A stretch of DNA of 11,131 nt, taken from Candidatus Magasanikbacteria bacterium CG_4_10_14_0_8_um_filter_42_12 (GTDB lineage: Bacteria > Patescibacteriota > Patescibacteriia > Magasanikbacterales > UBA922). The notes under the pieces were generated by a model. It worked only from the letters and a program-made list of their open reading frames with translations, was not told the DNA's origin and made no database searches. The stretch covers positions 1 to 11,131 of the forward strand of contig PFLZ01000134.1 in the NCBI GenBank assembly GCA_002784795.1, given 5' to 3'. A program made the position numbers and the translations under genes. Shown here in pieces: positions 1 through 5,313 of the stretch (positions are counted from its first letter, which is position 1; every line of letters starts with the position of its first letter).

Positions 1-204
1 TTGATTGCTGTTGTCATCATCCTGATCGGTGGTTTCCGTTGGATGACTGCTGGTGGAAATGAAGACAAAGTTGGCGAAGCACGAAAAACGATCTTTGCAG
101 GTATTATTGGTCTTGCGATCATTCTGTTCGCTTGGGGTATTACGATTTTTGTGGTCCAGCAACTTGGAAAAGCTTCTGGAGCTGCAGAATTCCAAAATCT
201 TTAG
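1..204 (+). CDS. T4SS-pilin-like small membrane protein, 5' end cut by window
   Basis: This is the C-terminal part of a VirB2/TrbC-like (T4SS_pilin type) subunit. The signal peptide and most of the first membrane helix lie upstream of the window, so the first codon (TTG) is here an internal leucine, not a start. What is visible is the end of helix 1 (VVIILIGGFRWM), the charged loop TAGGNEDKVGEARK, the second helix (GIIGLAIILFAWGITIFVV) and a short tail ending in EFQNL. The same core recurs in seven genes downstream, and the GNED loop is closest to the next gene (311-700). The subunit is expected to sit in the cytoplasmic membrane with both ends outside and the loop inside. A strong hairpin follows the stop codon. 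Family assignment is by motif resemblance only. Confidence 0.8.
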   Translation: MIAVVIILIGGFRWMTAGGNEDKVGEARKTIFAGIIGLAIILFAWGITIFVVQQLGKASGAAEFQNL

Positions 205-215
205 TATATATTGCC

Positions 216-249
216 TATACGAGACCTTGCGTGTGCAGGGTCTCGTATA
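216..249 (+). terminator. Strong hairpin after the first pilin gene
   Basis: The arms 216-230 and 235-249 pair over 15 positions with one G-U pair and a 4-nt GTGT loop. There is no T-run directly after it, so it may stop transcription poorly, protect the 3' end of the mRNA, or work in both directions. It lies 11 nt past the stop codon at 202-204. Confidence 0.55.
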
Positions 250-272
250 CAGCAAGGTTGTACATTTTCCCG

Positions 273-301
273 TGAATAATATTCAACAGAAAGTGTATAA
301 T
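273..301 (+). promoter_or_regulatory. Possible promoter giving a near-leaderless transcript
   Basis: A perfect TATAAT lies at 296-301, only nine bases before the ATG at 311. The -35 region is weak (TGAATA at 273-278 with a 17-bp spacer). Transcription would start at about 307-309, so the mRNA for the next pilin would be leaderless or nearly so. There is no Shine-Dalgarno sequence here, which fits. Confidence 0.4.
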
Positions 302-310
302 CATCATATT

Positions 311-700
311 ATGAAACGAACTCTTGCCTTCCTCACTCTCCTCGTTGTTGGATTTTTTGGACTCATGCACGCATTTCCTGTACTGGCTGCGGATCCTCTT
401 GGGGTCAACTATGGTGCATCGAGTGGACTCTCTGGTCAGGATCTCCGTGTGAGTATCGCGCGTGTGATCAAGTTTATCTTGAGTTTTCTTGGTCTTATTT
501 TTCTCATCCTTACCCTCTACGCTGGCTTCATGTGGATGACTTCTGCCGGCAACGAAGATAGAGTGGGTACTGCAAAGAAAATTCTCTGGGGCGCAATTAT
601 TGGTCTTGCGATTATCTTGTTTTCCTACGCGATTACGCAGTTTGTGATTACCAATTTGTACGAGGTGTCGACGAGCGGGGCGTATAATGCGGCGCAGTAA
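311..700 (+). CDS. T4SS-pilin-like small membrane protein (129 aa)
   Basis: Minimal VirB2/TrbC-like subunit. Residues 1-26 form a clear signal peptide (MKRTLAFLTLLVVGFF...) with cleavage expected near PVLA/AD. Helix 1 spans about 49-75, the charged loop is TSAGNEDRVGTAKK (77-90), and helix 2 spans about 92-115 (GAIIGLAIILFSYAITQFV). A short polar tail without cysteines ends in NAAQ. The open frame extends upstream to about position 53, but that extension runs through the preceding hairpin and only the ATG at 311 puts the signal peptide at the N-terminus. TATAAT lies just upstream and there is no ribosome binding site. The stop codon TAA (698-700) is also the first three bases of the heptamer array that follows. 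Membrane topology is predicted N-out/C-out, as for VirB2 pilins. A role in a filament or secretion conduit is inference. Confidence 0.85.
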   Translation: MKRTLAFLTLLVVGFFGLMHAFPVLAADPLGVNYGASSGLSGQDLRVSIARVIKFILSFLGLIFLILTLYAGFMWMTSAGNEDRVGTAKKILWGAIIGLAIILFSYAITQFVITNLYEVSTSGAYNAAQ

Positions 701-760
701 TTCGTAATTAGTAAAAAGTAAATGGTAATTTGTAAATCGTAATTAGTAAAAAGTAAAAAG
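698..760 (+). repeat. Heptamer array, nine perfect TAANNNG units
   Basis: Nine consecutive 7-bp units fit TAANNNG without a break: TAATTCG, TAATTAG, TAAAAAG, TAAATGG, TAATTTG, TAAATCG, TAATTAG, TAAAAAG, TAAAAAG. The first unit contains the pilin stop codon. The last leads into the ribosome binding site of the four-helix-bundle gene. A 7-bp period puts TAA in each of the three frames every 21 bp, so the array closes all forward frames. Confidence 0.85.
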
Positions 761-768
761 GAAACGAT

Positions 769-1134
769 ATGGGAGGGATAACGTCATTTCAGGATTTGGA
801 CGTGTGGAAGGAAGGACACCGACTCGTTCTCTCCGTGTATCGTGTGACGAAGGATTTCCCAGCAGACGAACGATTTGGTATCATAAGTCAGCTCAGACGA
901 GCATCGAGTTCTATTACAGCAAATATTGCAGAAGGATTTTCGCGGTATTATTTCAAAGATAAAATACGATTTTATTATCAATCAAGAGGATCTGTATCCG
1001 AGGTACAAAACTTTCTTATTTTATCAAAAGATCTTGGCTATCTAGATGAGGAAATCCTCCAAGATTTGAATACACAAGCAACGAAAATACTGCTCTTAAC
1101 AAATGGTCTCATCCGCTCTATCCGCAATCAGTAA
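769..1134 (+). CDS. Four-helix-bundle protein, S23/IVP family
   Basis: This 121-aa protein has the hallmarks of the four-helix-bundle family also called 23S rRNA intervening-sequence (S23) protein: FQDLDVWKEGHRL at the start, VYRVTKDFPADERFG (24-38), the signature QLRRASSSITANIAEG (41-56) and a C-terminal SVSEVQNFLILSKDLGYL. Length is typical. Relatives are encoded inside 23S rRNA intervening sequences or as stand-alone genes, and the fold is shared with Avd of diversity-generating retroelements. Biochemical function is not established. The start at 769 is supported by AAAAGG seven bases upstream, the only good Shine-Dalgarno sequence before any gene here. The gene has no similarity to the pilins around it and lies between heptamer arrays, so it looks like an inserted cassette. 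No rRNA, reverse transcriptase or template repeat is present. Confidence 0.9.
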   Translation: MGGITSFQDLDVWKEGHRLVLSVYRVTKDFPADERFGIISQLRRASSSITANIAEGFSRYYFKDKIRFYYQSRGSVSEVQNFLILSKDLGYLDEEILQDLNTQATKILLLTNGLIRSIRNQ

Positions 1135-1166
1135 TTTGTAAATAGTAAAAAGTAAATCGTAAGTGG
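1132..1166 (+). repeat. Heptamer array, five TAANNNG units
   Basis: Five units (TAATTTG, TAAATAG, TAAAAAG, TAAATCG, TAAGTGG) start on the stop codon of the four-helix-bundle gene, just as the upstream array starts on the pilin stop codon. This array has the same orientation as 698-760 and is followed by the inverted array at 1198-1253, with which it can form an imperfect hairpin. Confidence 0.85.
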
Positions 1167-1190
1167 CACACACCTGACAATCATGCCTTA

Positions 1191-1260
1191 CGAATTGCCA
1201 TTTACTTTTTACCATTTACTTTTTACCAATTACAAATTACCATTTACCATTTACTAATCA
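1191..1260 (+). repeat. Inverted heptamer array, CNNNTTA units
   Basis: Eight perfect CNNNTTA units occupy 1198-1253, with degenerate units on both sides (CGAATTG, CTAATCA). On the minus strand they read TAAATGG, TAATTTG, TAATTGG, TAAAAAG and so on, the same repeat as 698-760 and 1132-1166 but inverted. The arm can pair with either upstream array. The array ends eight bases before the ATG at 1268 and so fills the space where a promoter or leader would be expected. Confidence 0.85.
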
Positions 1261-1267
1261 CTTCCGT

Positions 1268-2572
1268 ATGAATCGTCTGTCAAAAAAATCATTTTTCCTC
1301 GGTCTGGTAGTGAGCCTGGTGTTCGTGCCACTGTTTGTGTTTGCACAGAGTGATGATTCGTATGGACTCAAGGCGACGGCAAATGCTGCAAACCTCACAA
1401 AATATGGGGATAATGTCCCGGCGCTCATCGGAAATGTCATTGGTACGTTGTTGTCACTTGTATCGGTCATCTTTTTTATTCTCATGATCTACGGTGGTCT
1501 CAGATGGATGCTTTCGAGAGGCAACGAAGACCAGAGCAAAAAAGCACTTGATACGATTATTGCGGCGATCATCGGTATCATCATTGTCCTCGCGTCATAC
1601 GCGATTACCACGTTTGTCTTCAATAGTGTGGGAGCAGCAAGTACAGGTGGGGGTGGCGGTGGAACACCTACTGAACAACCAAAAAAAGCTGATGGTGCTG
1701 TTTGTACAGCTGGAACACAGTGTACGTCTGGGGTGTGTACTGGTGGTGTGTGTGGGGTTGGAGGTTGTACCGCTGATACAGATTGTCAGTTAGGATTTAC
1801 GTGCAATAGTGAATCGAAGACGTGCGTCGATGCCGGTTCATGGTGTTTGACCTCTGCTGGTGAATGTAATCCTGGAAATGGACAATGCACTCTGCAGCCA
1901 TTTACCAGTCAAGCATTATGCCAGGCTGATCCAAGATATCAACAGCAAGGTACTATTTCCTGTAATTCCAAATGGGATTGTTATGCTGAATTTGATGACG
2001 CTATCCATGATTGTATAGGTGGATTTTGTAAAGAATTGTCTACGGCAGGTTTGGCTTGTACTACCAATAGTGCATGTAACAACCCAGGTAAGATTTGTGT
2101 TGCAGGATCTTGTGATGCTCTGACGTATTGTTCTGAATCAGTGTCAAATTTTGTTAGTTGTCCAAATGGATATGAATGTGATGTGACGCAAAATGATGCG
2201 AATGGAACCTGTAGAGCTGATGGATCATATTGTCTCCTTCAAGGAAGCGGCGGTACAGAATGTATTCTTAATGTAGGCGGAGGACAATGTGCTTCAAACA
2301 TTACCTTTAAAACTCAAAACGATTGTATGGCTCAACTTGCTGGATTGCAATGTGGTAATGATTATGATTGCTATGCATATGCTAAAACTCATGATAATGG
2401 ATTTGAATCGTTGTATTCTTGCCGAGTTGGGTATTGTGTTCAAATTCCAGAAAGTGAAACAGTCCAGTGTGCAAATAATTCGCAATGTGGTACAAATGAA
2501 AGTATTTGTGTAGGTGGAAAATGTCTTCCTTTAAGTACTATACCTCAGGATTTTGATCCTAATGCTACGTAA
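1268..2572 (+). CDS. Pilin-like protein fused to a 36-cysteine exported tail (434 aa)
   Basis: Residues 1-26 are a signal peptide (cleavage near VFA/QS). Residues 54-81 (helix 1), the loop SRGNEDQSKKALDT and 96-118 (helix 2, ending ASYAITTFVF) form the same core as the neighbouring pilin-like genes. A glycine run (127-132) then links to a tail of about 300 residues holding 36 cysteines (146-419), while the pilin core has none. The tail starts with one C-x5-C-x4-C-x4-C module and continues with two copies of a 16-cysteine block (167-282 and 288-419). The modules look like small disulfide knots, somewhat like Dickkopf-type cysteine-rich repeats, but no exact family is recognised. By topology the tail should lie outside the cytoplasmic membrane. 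No ribosome binding site precedes the ATG. Base composition drops in GC partway through the tail. An adhesive or substrate-binding role is only inference. Confidence 0.85.
   Translation: MNRLSKKSFFLGLVVSLVFVPLFVFAQSDDSYGLKATANAANLTKYGDNVPALIGNVIGTLLSLVSVIFFILMIYGGLRWMLSRGNEDQSKKALDTIIAAIIGIIIVLASYAITTFVFNSVGAASTGGGGGGTPTEQPKKADGAVCTAGTQCTSGVCTGGVCGVGGCTADTDCQLGFTCNSESKTCVDAGSWCLTSAGECNPGNGQCTLQPFTSQALCQADPRYQQQGTISCNSKWDCYAEFDDAIHDCIGGFCKELSTAGLACTTNSACNNPGKICVAGSCDALTYCSESVSNFVSCPNGYECDVTQNDANGTCRADGSYCLLQGSGGTECILNVGGGQCASNITFKTQNDCMAQLAGLQCGNDYDCYAYAKTHDNGFESLYSCRVGYCVQIPESETVQCANNSQCGTNESICVGGKCLPLSTIPQDFDPNAT
1766..2524 (+). repeat. Protein-level tandem duplication of a 16-cysteine block
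   Basis: Codons 167-282 and 288-419 of the cysteine-rich pilin align as two copies. Both have 16 cysteines in the same order, with identical spacing at several steps, including the last three (C-x5-C-x6-C-x4-C). Matching landmarks are WDCYA/YDCYA, GNGQC/GGGQC, GGFC/VGYC and ICVAGSC/ICVGGKC. The DNA copies have diverged, so this is an old duplication. Confidence 0.8.
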
Positions 2573-2578
2573 TAAATT

Positions 2579-3244
2579 ATGTTTAAACAAAGGGTACATT
2601 ATTTTGTTTTATTGTTTAGTTCTTTTTTATTATTTCCTACAATAGCCCACGCAAAAAAAACAATCGATGATGCCCCTACAGCGCTCAACGCTGTAGCTGG
2701 CAGAGTGGGGGTAGAACAAACGACAGTGCCATTGTATGTCGGGACCATCATTCAGACGATTCTCATGTTTAGTGGAATACTGTTTTTCGTCCTCATGGTG
2801 TATGCAGGATTTCGGTGGATGACCGCGCGTGGCGAAGAAGAAAAAATTACCAAAGCAAAGCGTACACTCATCGGCGCTATTATTGGTCTTGCTATTCTGG
2901 TTTCATCATACGCACTGACCAACTTCATCACCACACGTATTATAGAAGGAAAAGCAAATGCAGGTGGAGATATCAATTTTGAAAACAACGACTTTACCAC
3001 ACTTGGCTGTTGTTTTGATAAAGTACGTCATCCTAGCTCTGGTGCAGAGCTCCGTGCTACGACGTGGGCATGGCGGGTCACATCAGAAGGAAATTGTCGT
3101 GAAGAAGGAGAGCGTGTCAGTGCTACGGATGAAATCGCTGGTGCAGGGATGTGGAAGTTCACTCCTGTAGATTCAGAACAGCAATGTGAAGCACTGTATA
3201 CGAGCTTTTGTGAGACAGAAGATTGTTATGATCTTTCCTTTTAA
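2579..3244 (+). CDS. Pilin-like protein with a six-cysteine C-terminal domain (221 aa)
   Basis: The signal peptide is MFKQRVHYFVLLFSSFLLFP..., with cleavage near AHA/KK (25). Helix 1 spans about 52-79, the loop is TARGEEEKITKAKR (82-95), and helix 2 spans about 97-118 (GAIIGLAILVSSYALTNFI). After a linker, residues 140-221 form an extra domain with cysteines at 144, 145, 173, 203, 211 and 216. It is rich in W, E and T and ends CYDLSF. This domain resembles neither the cysteine-rich tail upstream nor any family I recognise. The gene starts six bases after the previous stop with no ribosome binding site, so the two cysteine-tailed pilins are very likely cotranscribed and perhaps translationally coupled. 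The first 70 bases are notably AT-rich compared with the rest. Export and disulfide formation outside the membrane are inferred. Confidence 0.82.
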   Translation: MFKQRVHYFVLLFSSFLLFPTIAHAKKTIDDAPTALNAVAGRVGVEQTTVPLYVGTIIQTILMFSGILFFVLMVYAGFRWMTARGEEEKITKAKRTLIGAIIGLAILVSSYALTNFITTRIIEGKANAGGDINFENNDFTTLGCCFDKVRHPSSGAELRATTWAWRVTSEGNCREEGERVSATDEIAGAGMWKFTPVDSEQQCEALYTSFCETEDCYDLSF

Positions 3245-3248
3245 TAGC

Positions 3249-3276
3249 GTACGGATTACTGATAATCCTGATGTAC
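3249..3276 (+). terminator. Small hairpin after the cysteine-tailed pilins
   Basis: GGATTA (3253-3258) pairs with TAATCC (3263-3268) around a CTGA loop. GTAC at 3249-3252 and 3273-3276 can extend the stem across a 4-nt bulge. There is no T-run, so it is a weak candidate for a terminator or mRNA 3'-end structure. Confidence 0.3.
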
Positions 3277-3295
3277 AGATGTGCAGTGATGTATT

Positions 3296-3323
3296 TTGAT
3301 CTCACAGGTTTTTAGGGTATACT
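3296..3323 (+). promoter_or_regulatory. Probable promoter for the 3422-5299 pilin genes
   Basis: TTGATC (3296-3301), a 16-bp spacer and TATACT (3318-3323) resemble a sigma70-type promoter. It lies in the 177-bp gap after the cysteine-tailed pilins. The transcript would carry a leader of about 90 nt that includes the hairpin at 3344-3359. Confidence 0.5.
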
Positions 3324-3343
3324 TGGGTGACACAAAAGGAGTG

Positions 3344-3363
3344 ACGAGCGTTAGCTCGTTTTC
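3344..3363 (+). terminator. Hairpin with T-run inside the leader (possible attenuator)
   Basis: ACGAGC (3344-3349) and GCTCGT (3354-3359) form a 6-bp stem with a GTTA loop, followed by TTTC. The preceding segment is A-rich (ACAAAAGGA). It looks like a short intrinsic terminator placed between the promoter and the pilin start, so it could reduce read-through into the pilin genes or end a transcript from upstream. Confidence 0.4.
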
Positions 3364-3421
3364 TCAGAAGCAATATTTGTGGATGAAGGGTAAACGCTCT
3401 TCACGTCATGTTTCAAATGGT

Positions 3422-3787
3422 ATGAAGTATATACACACAATTGTTACCGCTCCACTCCTATCAATATTCAGTGCACTCCCAGCATATGCGCAGGGGAGTC
3501 TAAAAGATGCGGGGAAAAATTTAGGTATCGTCTCTACAAAAGCGGGGACATCAGAATCTGATATTGGGAGTGTCGTTGGTATTGTTATCAATGCCGCCCT
3601 CACTCTTGTAGGACTTATTTTCCTTGCTCTCATGGTGTATGCCGGGTATCTCTGGATGACCGCACGAGGAGAAAGTGAGCCCGTCGACAAAGCGAAAAAA
3701 ATCATTGCAGGATCTCTCATCGGGCTCGTGATTGTGTTGAGTGCGTATGCTATTACGGTCTTTGTTACTACAGGATTTACGAGATAG
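3422..3787 (+). CDS. T4SS-pilin-like small membrane protein (121 aa)
   Basis: Minimal subunit: signal peptide MKYIHTIVTAPLLSIFSALP with cleavage after AYA (23), helix 1 about 51-78, loop TARGESEPVDKAKK (80-93), helix 2 about 95-117 (GSLIGLVIVLSAYAITVFV), and almost no tail. I chose the ATG at 3422 because it gives the compact signal peptide seen in its siblings. The in-frame ATG at 3383 would add 13 residues (MKGKRSSRHVSNG) and cannot be excluded. Neither start has a ribosome binding site. The core is very close to the next gene (3904-4284) at both protein and DNA level, so these two are probably the most recent duplicates in the cluster. A gene-free pair of heptamer arrays separates them. 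Confidence 0.82.
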   Translation: MKYIHTIVTAPLLSIFSALPAYAQGSLKDAGKNLGIVSTKAGTSESDIGSVVGIVINAALTLVGLIFLALMVYAGYLWMTARGESEPVDKAKKIIAGSLIGLVIVLSAYAITVFVTTGFTR

Positions 3788-3829
3788 TAATTTGTAATTA
3801 GTAAATCATACATTGTACATAGTACATAG
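3788..3829 (+). repeat. Heptamer array (left arm of a gene-less inverted pair)
   Basis: Units TAATTTG, TAATTAG, TAAATCA, TACATTG, TACATAG, TACATAG keep an exact 7-bp period and begin directly after the TAG stop codon of the pilin gene. The last units drift from TAANNNG to TACATNG. Bases 3786-3806 match the reverse complement of 3864-3891 except for one extra heptamer in the right arm. Confidence 0.75.
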
Positions 3830-3861
3830 TGAGGAGAGTACAGAAAAAAAGTATGTAATTA

Positions 3862-3896
3862 TTATTTACTAATTACCATTTACAAATTACTAGTTC
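3862..3896 (+). repeat. Inverted heptamer array (right arm of the gene-less pair)
   Basis: Units CTAATTA, CCATTTA and CAAATTA (3869-3889), with degenerate units on both sides, are the inverted form of the array at 3788-3829. The two arms can form a hairpin of about 21 bp with one 7-nt bulge and a loop of about 57 nt. The space between the arms has no gene. The array ends a few bases before the ATG at 3904. Confidence 0.75.
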
Positions 3897-3903
3897 CTCA
3901 CTT

Positions 3904-4284
3904 ATGAAACGTTTTATTGTCTTTACTGTCTCACTCGCGTTCTTTCTCGGTGTGGTGTCAAATGCCTACGCGATTGACCTCGGAAACAATTATATCACCA
4001 GTGCCGCAAACAAAGCAGGCTATGCGTCGAATACAGATGAAACGACGTTTGCAGCAACACTCGGTACGGTTGTCAAAACAGCATTATCCTTTGTGGGTAT
4101 TATTTTTCTTTCGCTCATGGTCTATGCTGGGTTTCTCTGGATGACCGCCCGTGGAGAAAGTGACCAAGTAGACAAAGCCAAAAAAATTATCATTCAATCT
4201 ATTATTGGCCTTGCGATTACTGTCGGAGCATATAGCATCACCGCATTTATTGTCCCTATTATTCTCACGCGTACAGCGAAATAA
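3904..4284 (+). CDS. T4SS-pilin-like small membrane protein (126 aa)
   Basis: Signal peptide MKRFIVFTVSLAFFLGVVSN with cleavage after AYA (23). The short mature N-terminus (IDLGNNYITSAANKAGYAS) is followed by helix 1 at about 53-79, loop TARGESDQVDKAKK (81-94) and helix 2 at about 96-120. The tail is only LTRTAK. Closest to the preceding pilin gene (TARGES-x2-VDKAKK in both), suggesting a local duplication. The next pilin starts nine bases after this stop codon, so this gene and the two after it look like one transcription unit. No ribosome binding site is visible. Expected in the cytoplasmic membrane with both termini outside. Whether it polymerises cannot be told from sequence. Confidence 0.85.
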   Translation: MKRFIVFTVSLAFFLGVVSNAYAIDLGNNYITSAANKAGYASNTDETTFAATLGTVVKTALSFVGIIFLSLMVYAGFLWMTARGESDQVDKAKKIIIQSIIGLAITVGAYSITAFIVPIILTRTAK

Positions 4285-4293
4285 TATCTATAT

Positions 4294-4773
4294 ATGAGAT
4301 ATGCGTTTGTTCGGTTTGGGGTTCTCATGAGCATTGTTGCACTAGAATGTTCTTTTTCTTTGTCTGCATCTCCTGTCTACGCGCAGACGCTGAGTAAGGA
4401 TATTATCAGTCAAGTCGATAGTGCTGGAGGAAATGCAGGGTATGCAACATCGTCGACGTCAACGCCTATGGTGTTTTTTGCATCATTTATTTCGGTCATG
4501 CTTAGTATTATTGGGATGCTGTTTTTTGTGCTTTTGATATATGCTGGATATGTTCGGTTGACTGCACATGGAGAAGAAGATCGTTTGAAAAAATCTACCA
4601 AAACAATGGTAGCGGCACTCCTCGGATTGACTATTGTGTTGCTCTCCTACAGTATTACAAAATTTGTCCTTCCTCGTGTGTACAATGCATCCCGGGTCGA
4701 ACCTGTGTATGAAGAAAACAATGATTCTCCAAATACGATATACAATAAAAGTATTGATATAAAATTGTTTTAG
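4294..4773 (+). CDS. T4SS-pilin-like membrane protein, divergent loop (159 aa)
   Basis: The signal peptide runs to VYA/QT (30). The mature N-terminus is rich in S, G and T. Helix 1 is about 58-86, the loop is TAHGEEDRLKKSTK (90-103), and helix 2 is about 105-127 (AALLGLTIVLLSYSITKFV). A polar tail of about 30 residues (RVEPVYEENNDSPNTIYNK...) carries no cysteine. The otherwise conserved W-M before the loop is replaced by R-L, so this subunit has diverged at the membrane/loop boundary. An alternative start at Met12 (4327) would leave a shorter signal peptide. There is no ribosome binding site, and the spacing to both neighbours is under 10 bases, which suggests cotranscription. Confidence 0.82.
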   Translation: MRYAFVRFGVLMSIVALECSFSLSASPVYAQTLSKDIISQVDSAGGNAGYATSSTSTPMVFFASFISVMLSIIGMLFFVLLIYAGYVRLTAHGEEDRLKKSTKTMVAALLGLTIVLLSYSITKFVLPRVYNASRVEPVYEENNDSPNTIYNKSIDIKLF

Positions 4774-4777
4774 GTAT

Positions 4778-5299
4778 ATGAAACATCGATTTATTGCGTT
4801 TGCATGCCTTCTGGCAATGATGGGGAGTATTCCTTTTTTTGTGTATGCGGTTCCTGCGTCAGATGCATTCCAGATGGACGGACAAGTGGACTTTCACGTT
4901 GCTGATGTCAATAAACAAACACAAGCGTTCACAGGATCAAAAGGAGCAGACCTTGGTGGTGTCAAGGACGTTCGTACCGCAGTCGCATCAACGATCCAAA
5001 AATTTCTTGTGGTACTCGGGACCTTGTTTCTTGTCTATATGATTTATGCGGGGTATCTGATTTTGACCTCAGCCGGGATAGAGGAACGTGTTGAAAAAGG
5101 AAAAAGTATATTGCGGAACGCGATTATTGGTCTTATTATTATTTTGTTTTCGTACGCGGCGACATGGTTTGTCCGGTGGCTCTTTCTCGCAACTGGGGAT
5201 GAAGCGTATAAAAATTGTGTGCCTTATTCGATTGATTACAATGGTGACCCTCTCGACGCGAGTGGTAATCTTATCGAAAATCCTCAAAATGGCTGTTAA
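4778..5299 (+). CDS. T4SS-pilin-like membrane protein with two-cysteine tail (173 aa)
   Basis: Signal peptide MKHRFIAFACLLAMMGSIPF with cleavage near VYA/VP (24). A longer exported N-terminal segment (25-66, including QVDFHVADVNKQ) precedes helix 1 (about 68-96). The loop is TSAGIEERVEKGKS and helix 2 is about 113-137 (NAIIGLIIILFSYAATWFV). The tail has exactly two cysteines (147 and 173, the last residue), so a single disulfide closing a 25-residue loop is plausible. W-M before the loop is replaced by I-L, making this the most divergent core of the set. It is the last gene of the pilin cluster: a terminator-like hairpin follows at 5320. It begins four bases after the previous stop codon. Confidence 0.82.
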   Translation: MKHRFIAFACLLAMMGSIPFFVYAVPASDAFQMDGQVDFHVADVNKQTQAFTGSKGADLGGVKDVRTAVASTIQKFLVVLGTLFLVYMIYAGYLILTSAGIEERVEKGKSILRNAIIGLIIILFSYAATWFVRWLFLATGDEAYKNCVPYSIDYNGDPLDASGNLIENPQNGC

Positions 5300-5313
5300 T
5301 ACCCATACCCTAA

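Follow-up and report, generated by a model that had tools for sequence, protein, structure and literature searches.

An S23 four-helix-bundle gene between inverted heptamer arrays in a Magasanikbacteria genome, and its possible place in a mobile element

The S23 locus between pilin-like genes

The window, by which we mean the whole stretch of 11,131 nucleotides analysed (contig PFLZ01000134.1, here C80), belongs to the genome of Candidatus Magasanikbacteria bacterium CG_4_10_14_0_8_um_filter_42_12 (G000), a draft of 1,044,817 bases in 169 contigs. A small gene of the S23 family lies in it, flanked by arrays of a degenerate heptamer, with the following features.

311..700, + strand: upstream host gene, T4SS pilin-like (PF18895 at 23.2 bits, below the cut-off of 26.6)
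698..760, + strand: left arm, nine TAANNNG units found by pattern search; its first TAA doubles as the stop of the pilin-like gene upstream
769..1134, + strand: S23 (23S_rRNA_IVP) four-helix-bundle gene, 121 aa, identified by PF05635, an AlphaFold2 model and a structural match to 2gsc
1132..1166, + strand: second forward array of five TAANNNG units, the first of them on the stop codon of S23 (1132-1134)
1198..1253, - strand: right arm, eight inverted units (CNNNTTA on the + strand), ending 14 nt before the ATG at 1268 and pairing with the left arm
1268..2572, + strand: downstream T4SS pilin-like host gene whose C-terminal part is long (PF18895 at 32.1 bits, cut-off 26.6), with homologues in the relatives G001, G002 and G003
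about 3788..3892, strand not given: gene-less TAANNNG hairpin, directly after the TAG stop (3785-3787) of another pilin-like gene

Positions 1-5300 hold a same-direction run of T4SS pilin-like paralogues, and one protein of 434 aa has seven matches on C80, itself included.

Three consecutive TAANNNG units are matched 17 times in the window, against 0.01 expected and a count reached by none of 200 shuffles; the matches fall at 698-760 (+), 1132-1166 (+) and 1198-1253 (-), plus one at 3869-3889 (-). The nine units before and five after the gene that the original prediction had reported are confirmed, and its ‘eight or more’ inverted units number eight. It had also held that the arms can pair around the gene as a stem-loop, and in the predicted transcript of the cassette the left arm does pair with the right (−139.3 kcal/mol, z −3.78, 0/100 shuffles as good); the left-right alignment score of the locus, 72, is the highest in its row when set against mismatched pairings. 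For the gene-less hairpin at about 3788-3892 the fold has a z of −2.28, with 10 of 200 shuffles equally good. That both forward arrays start exactly on a stop codon is correct for the window, but as a general statement it has to be relaxed to arms that lie on the host stop, immediately before it or in its vicinity. The complementary arms around the gene reproduce the layout of 23S rRNA intervening sequences (IVS), here at a site between pilin-like genes with no rRNA gene.

The four-helix-bundle identity, first read from the sequence, was borne out for the product: PF05635 is matched at 122.2 bits (cut-off 33.8), the AlphaFold2 model has a pLDDT of 97.2, and a structure search gave 2gsc as the best match (TM 0.90), with 2rld also found. 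Weaker structural matches (E 0.01-0.07) were to Avd and a diversity-generating retroelement (DGR) particle (4dwl, 8ub7), and PHROG 3206, matched with E 4.9e-8, points to the same likeness to Avd. Each of the solved S23 entries, 2gsc (from X. campestris) and 2rld, has five chains, and by analogy with them the window protein is probably pentameric. S23 proteins are widespread and, to our knowledge, have no established function outside rRNA; we know of no catalytic site in them. The window's S23 gave no tblastn match in phages. Values of dN/dS between 0.03 and 0.13 in eight of nine orthologous pairs indicate purifying selection, the ninth pair being saturated and two further pairs having pS near 0.7, and internal stops mark decayed copies in eight of 118 locus rows of the wider set described below.

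Inverted arms at S23 genes of other loci and genomes

The source genome contains 15 S23 matches, corresponding to 14 loci after merging of one split gene, i.e. that of the window and 13 others. With flanks read by eye, most were found in the gap between two genes and inside inverted short tandem repeats, the words of which differ among loci: TAANNNG at C80 and C13, GTTCGGA at C52, a 9-mer around GAAAGCTTA at C49, CAGCANNNN at C106, GTTNATTN at C112 and C149, and further words elsewhere. The sites include pheS-S23-pheT, atpG-S23-atpD and, by eye from the translation, frr-S23-dtd. TAANNNG as a signature of S23 in general was rejected, the triple pattern coinciding in this genome with the C80 gene only and, loosely, with that of C13. 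Of the tie originally drawn between TAANNNG 7-bp arrays and this protein family, what stands is the accompaniment of S23 genes by inverted arrays, whereas TAANNNG turns out to be one of many words and hairpins without the gene occur.

Other arrangements were also met. At L013 (G000:C30:9868-9895) and L015 (G000:C32:4387-4414) TAANNNG arrays lie within long ORFs, in the antisense stop-free orientation, placing 28 bp of repeat in coding sequence. A different palindromic repeat (gacttgattcaggatctttc...) is found between or beside TAANNNG arrays at L044 (G000:C84), and parts of it stand beside such arrays at L019 (C37), L020 (C42) and L022 (C54), which looks as if one element occupies another's loop. 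In G002, locus L126 (G002:C11:105015-106374) has two same-strand S23 genes about 1 kb apart that encode unlike proteins (score ratio 0.18).

The comparison was extended to 39 genomes (the source and 38 relatives), 22 of which have S23, with 0-16 matches per genome; of the 118 loci obtained, five had too little flank, leaving 113, and the eight with internal stops were retained. Pairing was scored by local alignment of 250 nt upstream with the reverse complement of 250 nt downstream, mismatched pairings in the 113-locus set giving a 95th percentile of 24 and a 99th of 29. The mean score was 35.5 for true pairs and 18.6 for mismatched ones; 71 of the 113 loci exceeded the 99th percentile and 85 the 95th, 57 were top of their row and 28 scored below the 95th percentile. 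The source-genome loci score above 24 in 13 of 14 cases and above 29 in nine. Among the controls, distal windows exceeded the 99th percentile in 0/109 cases, neighbouring ORFs of the same loci exceeded 29 in 4/142, and the same-orientation comparison gave 10/113. Arms with a score over 24 and a length of 20 nt or more (n = 81 and 51) repeat themselves most strongly at lags of 7 and 14, lags of 8 and 9 being also represented, which indicates units mostly of 7 and in part of 8-9 nt.

A second set of named loci, other phyla included, was drawn from the best 80 of 566 confirmed matches, of which 78 were usable. In this set 57/78 lie above the 95th percentile (24) and 30/78 above the 99th, which is higher here (36) because one protein clade was sampled; the latter comprise 12/30 loci of Bacteroidota, 6/22 of CPR, 4/5 of Planctomycetota, 8/16 of other groups and 0/5 unnamed. 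Still among these best 80 of 566, scores above 29 were reached by 43/78 S23 genes vs 3/119 neighbour ORFs, and the distal-window and same-orientation controls gave 0/75 and 5, respectively. On cyanobacterial plasmids (36 records matched) short inverted repeats were seen at seven of eight S23 loci viewed, three of the seven scoring 20-25; the eighth, on a Calothrix PCC 7716 plasmid, has none. The architecture is general among the sampled loci, and inverted arms and S23 gene co-occur.

Heptanucleotide repeats are common in bacteria (available text of PMC4679880), and ordinary intergenic slippage might have placed such repeats beside S23 genes by coincidence. The flank-pairing controls, the inverted arrangement and the link between unit and protein clade make this explanation scarcely credible, and arrays arising by chance were rejected by the shuffles, mismatched pairings, distal windows and neighbour ORFs.

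The link between unit and protein was examined in 6227 locus pairs, after dropping pairs with a similar flanking gene. A cross-arm score above 29 was found in 0.8-1.0% of pairs with a protein score ratio below 0.4, in 3.8% at 0.4-0.5, in 4.5% at 0.5-0.6 and in 19 of 73 (26%) at 0.6 or more. Taken across the whole set of 6227 unlinked pairs, protein and arm similarity have a Spearman coefficient of 0.03, and the link is therefore confined to close relatives. With the loci reduced to 47 representatives, one per site cluster (20 close pairs), the cross-arm score averaged 25.45, with 30% above 29; the permutations (n = 500) gave at most a mean of 21.65 and 10%, and 0/500 matched the observed values. 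Close S23 proteins at different sites share the repeat word more often than expected by chance. Units also change, as at one shared site where, by eye, the word is similar in three of four related S23s and different in the fourth.

With ORFs taken by the longest-frame rule and arms scoring above 24, the left arm starts at a median of 2 nt after the upstream stop (80 loci), or 0 nt in 53 named loci from the best 80 of 566, with wide tails, and the median distance from the end of the right arm to the following start is 12.5 nt (84 loci), or 13 nt in 55 named loci from the same best 80 of 566. Between co-directional neighbours S23 is in sense at 71/71 loci, and at 37/38 in the named set (best 80 of 566), counts that leave out loci with other or unclear neighbours (47/118 and 42/80); on cyanobacterial plasmids two of eight copies are antisense to both neighbours. 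In arms read in sense, stop triplets are more frequent on the left than on the right (249/2536 vs 187/2524, p 0.003; 189/1537 vs 110/1531, p 2e-6). As a universal rule for the units, stops in three frames hold only in part, a 9-nt period being incapable of supplying them. S23 copies lie at host gene ends, at or just after the stop codon or supplying it, and usually in sense. At L305 of Nostoc edaphicum, an exception to the sense rule, S23 has long AGGGAGT arms and runs antisense to the two ribonucleotide reductase genes that flank it.

The sense orientation and the good fold of the transcript would also suit an intervening sequence acting at the RNA level in mRNA, the stem being cut by RNase III or another enzyme so as to free the S23 message from the operon, with RNA pairing under selection. 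Genes of the same S23/IVP family sit in RNase III-cut stems of rRNA (available text of PMC4990558), the 23S rRNA IVS being genes enclosed by complementary arms with a sporadic distribution (available text of PMC4990558 and PMC11270868), and in CPR bacteria IVP ORFs are found in 16S and 23S insertions (same part of PMC11270868). However, a need for read-through transcription predicts sense orientation as well, and sense-strand G-U pairs do not outnumber A-C mismatches to a significant degree (80 vs 69, p 0.41; 50 vs 46, p 0.76), giving no support to strand-specific selection of RNA pairing. In 16 sources no Rfam match reached the gathering score, and a search of fetched S23 loci with rRNA motifs, run without a positive control, found none; no S23 in rRNA was thus seen among these loci. 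An intervening sequence in mRNA is compatible with a mobile element rather than exclusive of it; as the explanation of the locus we regard it as unlikely.

Filled and empty sites, and hairpins without the gene

The window site is empty in all three congeners, where homologues of the flanking pilin-like genes are adjacent without S23, at gaps of 43 nt (G001), 14 nt (G002) and 43 nt (G003); an AT-rich stretch in the G003 gap could be a relic. Of 30 pheS-pheT loci fetched, those of G000, G002 and G003 contain S23 in 461-481 nt, ten including that of G001 have a 1-nt gap, and those of G018 and G012 carry, by eye, tandem-repeat hairpins without S23. The 30 atpG-atpD loci fetched include 467 nt with S23 in G000, gaps of 34, 24 and 25 nt in G001-G003, and, by eye, hairpins without the gene in G011 and G018. 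In a type III-B CRISPR module, Picosynechococcus PCC 7003 has an S23 cassette between cas10 and a cmr3-like gene (L307/L336), where PCC 7002 has a 12-nt gap without S23.

Among plasmids of 97-98% identity, those of Trichormus and Scytonema are filled and those of Tolypothrix PCC 7601 and N. carneum empty. The junctions read as an insertion at the stop codon flanked on either side by GTAAT, which fits a 5-nt duplication or microhomology; this is the sole clean site, the others being too diverged, and 5 nt is our own reading of junctions for which the script printed 8 nt from a loose alignment. The 7-10 nt overlaps printed at some other junctions are not claimed as duplications because they come from loose local alignments. 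In Aulosira, a stretch resembling the 3' end of the Tolypothrix gene downstream of the cassette points to an insertion some 30 nt within the gene and a new stop on the left side, although the left flank is too diverged for certainty.

The presence of S23 cassettes is patchy, sites being filled in some relatives and empty in others, and it is because both states exist that we infer mobility. The suggestion of a mobile cassette in the original prediction is strongly supported, as the arrays go with S23, the window site is empty in the three congeners, and filled and empty alleles are found elsewhere; the comparison of relatives that it had called for gave filled and empty sites, but clean boundaries at one site only.

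Arms of the same unit also exist alone, with other loops. Triple TAANNNG arrays were matched 250 times in the 22 S23-positive genomes (16 of which carry them) vs three times in the 17 S23-negative ones (three carriers; Fisher p 0.001); a backward control pattern was also commoner in the former (66 vs 5), so that part of the effect reflects general repeat richness. One genome, G026, has 109 triple matches, and of 20 regions fetched from it, 18 have both arms of a hairpin but no S23, one holds an S23 cassette with the TAANNNG unit and the last shows only forward arrays. Its gene-less copies share their unit with a gene-bearing copy, several of the loops have a palindrome in common (by eye), and in 8 of the 18 a long + strand frame on the left terminates within the first units. 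All two-armed TAANNNG hairpins viewed have TAANNNG first and the inverted units second. In MITEs and REP/RAYT systems short gene-less inverted-repeat copies likewise accompany a gene-bearing copy. S23 hairpins without the gene resemble them in occurring beside a gene-bearing cassette, but the S23 cassette has no fixed terminal repeat and no transposase.

A host regulatory device, in which S23 binds its own arrays in mRNA or DNA to tune the flanking genes and copies are kept for usefulness rather than movement, would account for the purifying selection on S23 and for right arms ending about 12-13 nt before the next start codon, and for TAACTGA repeats close to start codons roles in translation have been proposed by MacGregor (available text of PMC4679880). 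This is hard to reconcile with a patchy presence (22/39 genomes, 0-16 matches) at unrelated host genes, with decayed copies (8/118 rows with stops) and with gene-less hairpins having other loops, and we consider it quite improbable.

Hairpins are Y1 substrates in known systems and S23 has the Avd fold, so that mobilisation in trans by a known enzyme (an IS200-like Y1 transposase as for REP, or a reverse transcriptase, RT, as for DGRs), with S23 as an accessory, had to be weighed. PF00078 (RT) has no match in the 169-contig draft of G000, nor was RT matched in the drafts of G012, G013 and G018, these four genomes having 15, 11, 7 and 16 S23 matches, respectively. Across the 39 draft genomes S23 is associated neither with RT (10/22 S23-positive, 10/17 S23-negative, p 0.52) nor with Y1 (12/22 and 6/17, p 0.33); 10 of the 22 S23-positive genomes lack a Y1 match and six lack both, in drafts that may miss genes. 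G000 has three weak PF01797 matches, none on C80. Dependence on RT or Y1 was rejected for want of association, and neither enzyme appears to be required in the genome for S23 cassettes. Past enzyme activity or genes missed in draft assemblies may lie behind the negative genomes; even so, mobilisation by a known enzyme is very improbable.

Two loci deserve mention in this context. At L056 (G024:C14:43633-43944), an RT match (G024:C14:41998-42639) stands at a distance of about 1 kb from the S23 gene, which may be the Avd of a DGR yet is flanked by short tandem arms (score 35). The 27 Y1 transposase matches of G003, mostly half-length and many at contig ends, are probably one multi-copy IS200-like element breaking the assembly.

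A putative mobile element and the systems it resembles

On balance we think it likely that positions 698-1253 hold a copy of a mobile S23 element that has MITE-like derivatives and whose S23 would recognise its own unit. In such an element, a single small four-helix-bundle gene would be bounded on both sides by inverted arms that repeat a degenerate 7-9 nt unit in tandem. Recognition of the unit, mobilisation in trans and RNA processing are put forward as hypotheses in the following form. The S23 protein, probably a pentamer, would recognise nucleic acid carrying its own unit, single-stranded or as a hairpin, perhaps with one unit per subunit by analogy with TRAP; it would be needed for spread or upkeep, in trans also for the gene-less hairpins. 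A 7- or 8-nt period combined with a stop triplet in the unit would bring stops in every frame, so that insertion at the 3' end of a gene would be tolerated, and the host operon would supply transcription of S23. With less support, the arms might form a stem in the transcript and be open to processing of the kind known from rRNA IVS.

Several observations weigh against a mobile S23 element. No transposition or gain event was observed as such, filled and empty sites do not by themselves tell the direction of change at each site, and a possible target duplication is seen at one clean junction only. The protein-arm correlation over the 6227 pairs is close to nil, 54 of the 73 close pairs stay under the arm threshold, and one of the four related S23s at a shared site has a different word. 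Moreover, a quarter of the loci (28/113) are below the 95th percentile, the two antisense plasmid copies depart from the rule, and S23 has no catalytic site known to us.

Among the closest known systems are the 23S rRNA IVS, and the likeness to their plan originally pointed out is borne out in the protein family and in the enclosure of the gene by arms, to which the sporadic distribution can be added. The cassettes differ in standing between protein genes, in arms made of degenerate 7-9 nt arrays of variable word and in having gene-less derivatives. With Avd of DGRs they share the fold, whereas the draft genome from which the S23 cassette comes has no RT match. The P6b hairpin of the Nostoc tRNA-Leu intron is also built of degenerate heptamers but within a group I intron. 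Xanthomonas GGGAATC, Nostoc GGGGAYT and Beggiatoaceae TAACTGA repeats are likewise intergenic 7-nt tandem units, those of Xanthomonas forming convergent pairs (70 and 75 in two genomes; available text of PMC4692102); in the searched text of the source papers (PMC4692102, PMC4679880) ‘S23’ and ‘four helix’ occur 0 times. The solved 2gsc is an X. campestris protein, and we propose that the Xanthomonas repeats may be tied to S23. No description of S23 genes tied to tandem-repeat arms outside rRNA was recognised in the literature searched, which mostly excludes subscription papers and preprints.

The protein and the enclosed layout are thus those of IVS and the location, arms and derivatives are not, and there is a real chance of a new class. 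Tentatively, and with somewhat less than an even chance of being right, we would describe the cassette as a bacterial mobile element of a new class: a small S23 pentamer reading a short tandem unit, one per subunit, would be the only protein; its ends would be arrays of clade-specific 7-9 nt words rather than fixed terminal repeats; it would target gene ends, bringing stops in all frames; and many unexplained bacterial heptanucleotide repeats would be its gene-less derivatives.

That this package recurs, with a varying word, at further gene ends in several groups of bacteria suggests a mobile element that is apparently undescribed. The link between protein clade and repeat word makes the recognition of the repeat by S23 directly testable, and the element is a possible source of heptanucleotide repeats so far described without explanation. 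If its spread needs neither a transposase nor a reverse transcriptase, the mechanism itself would be new.
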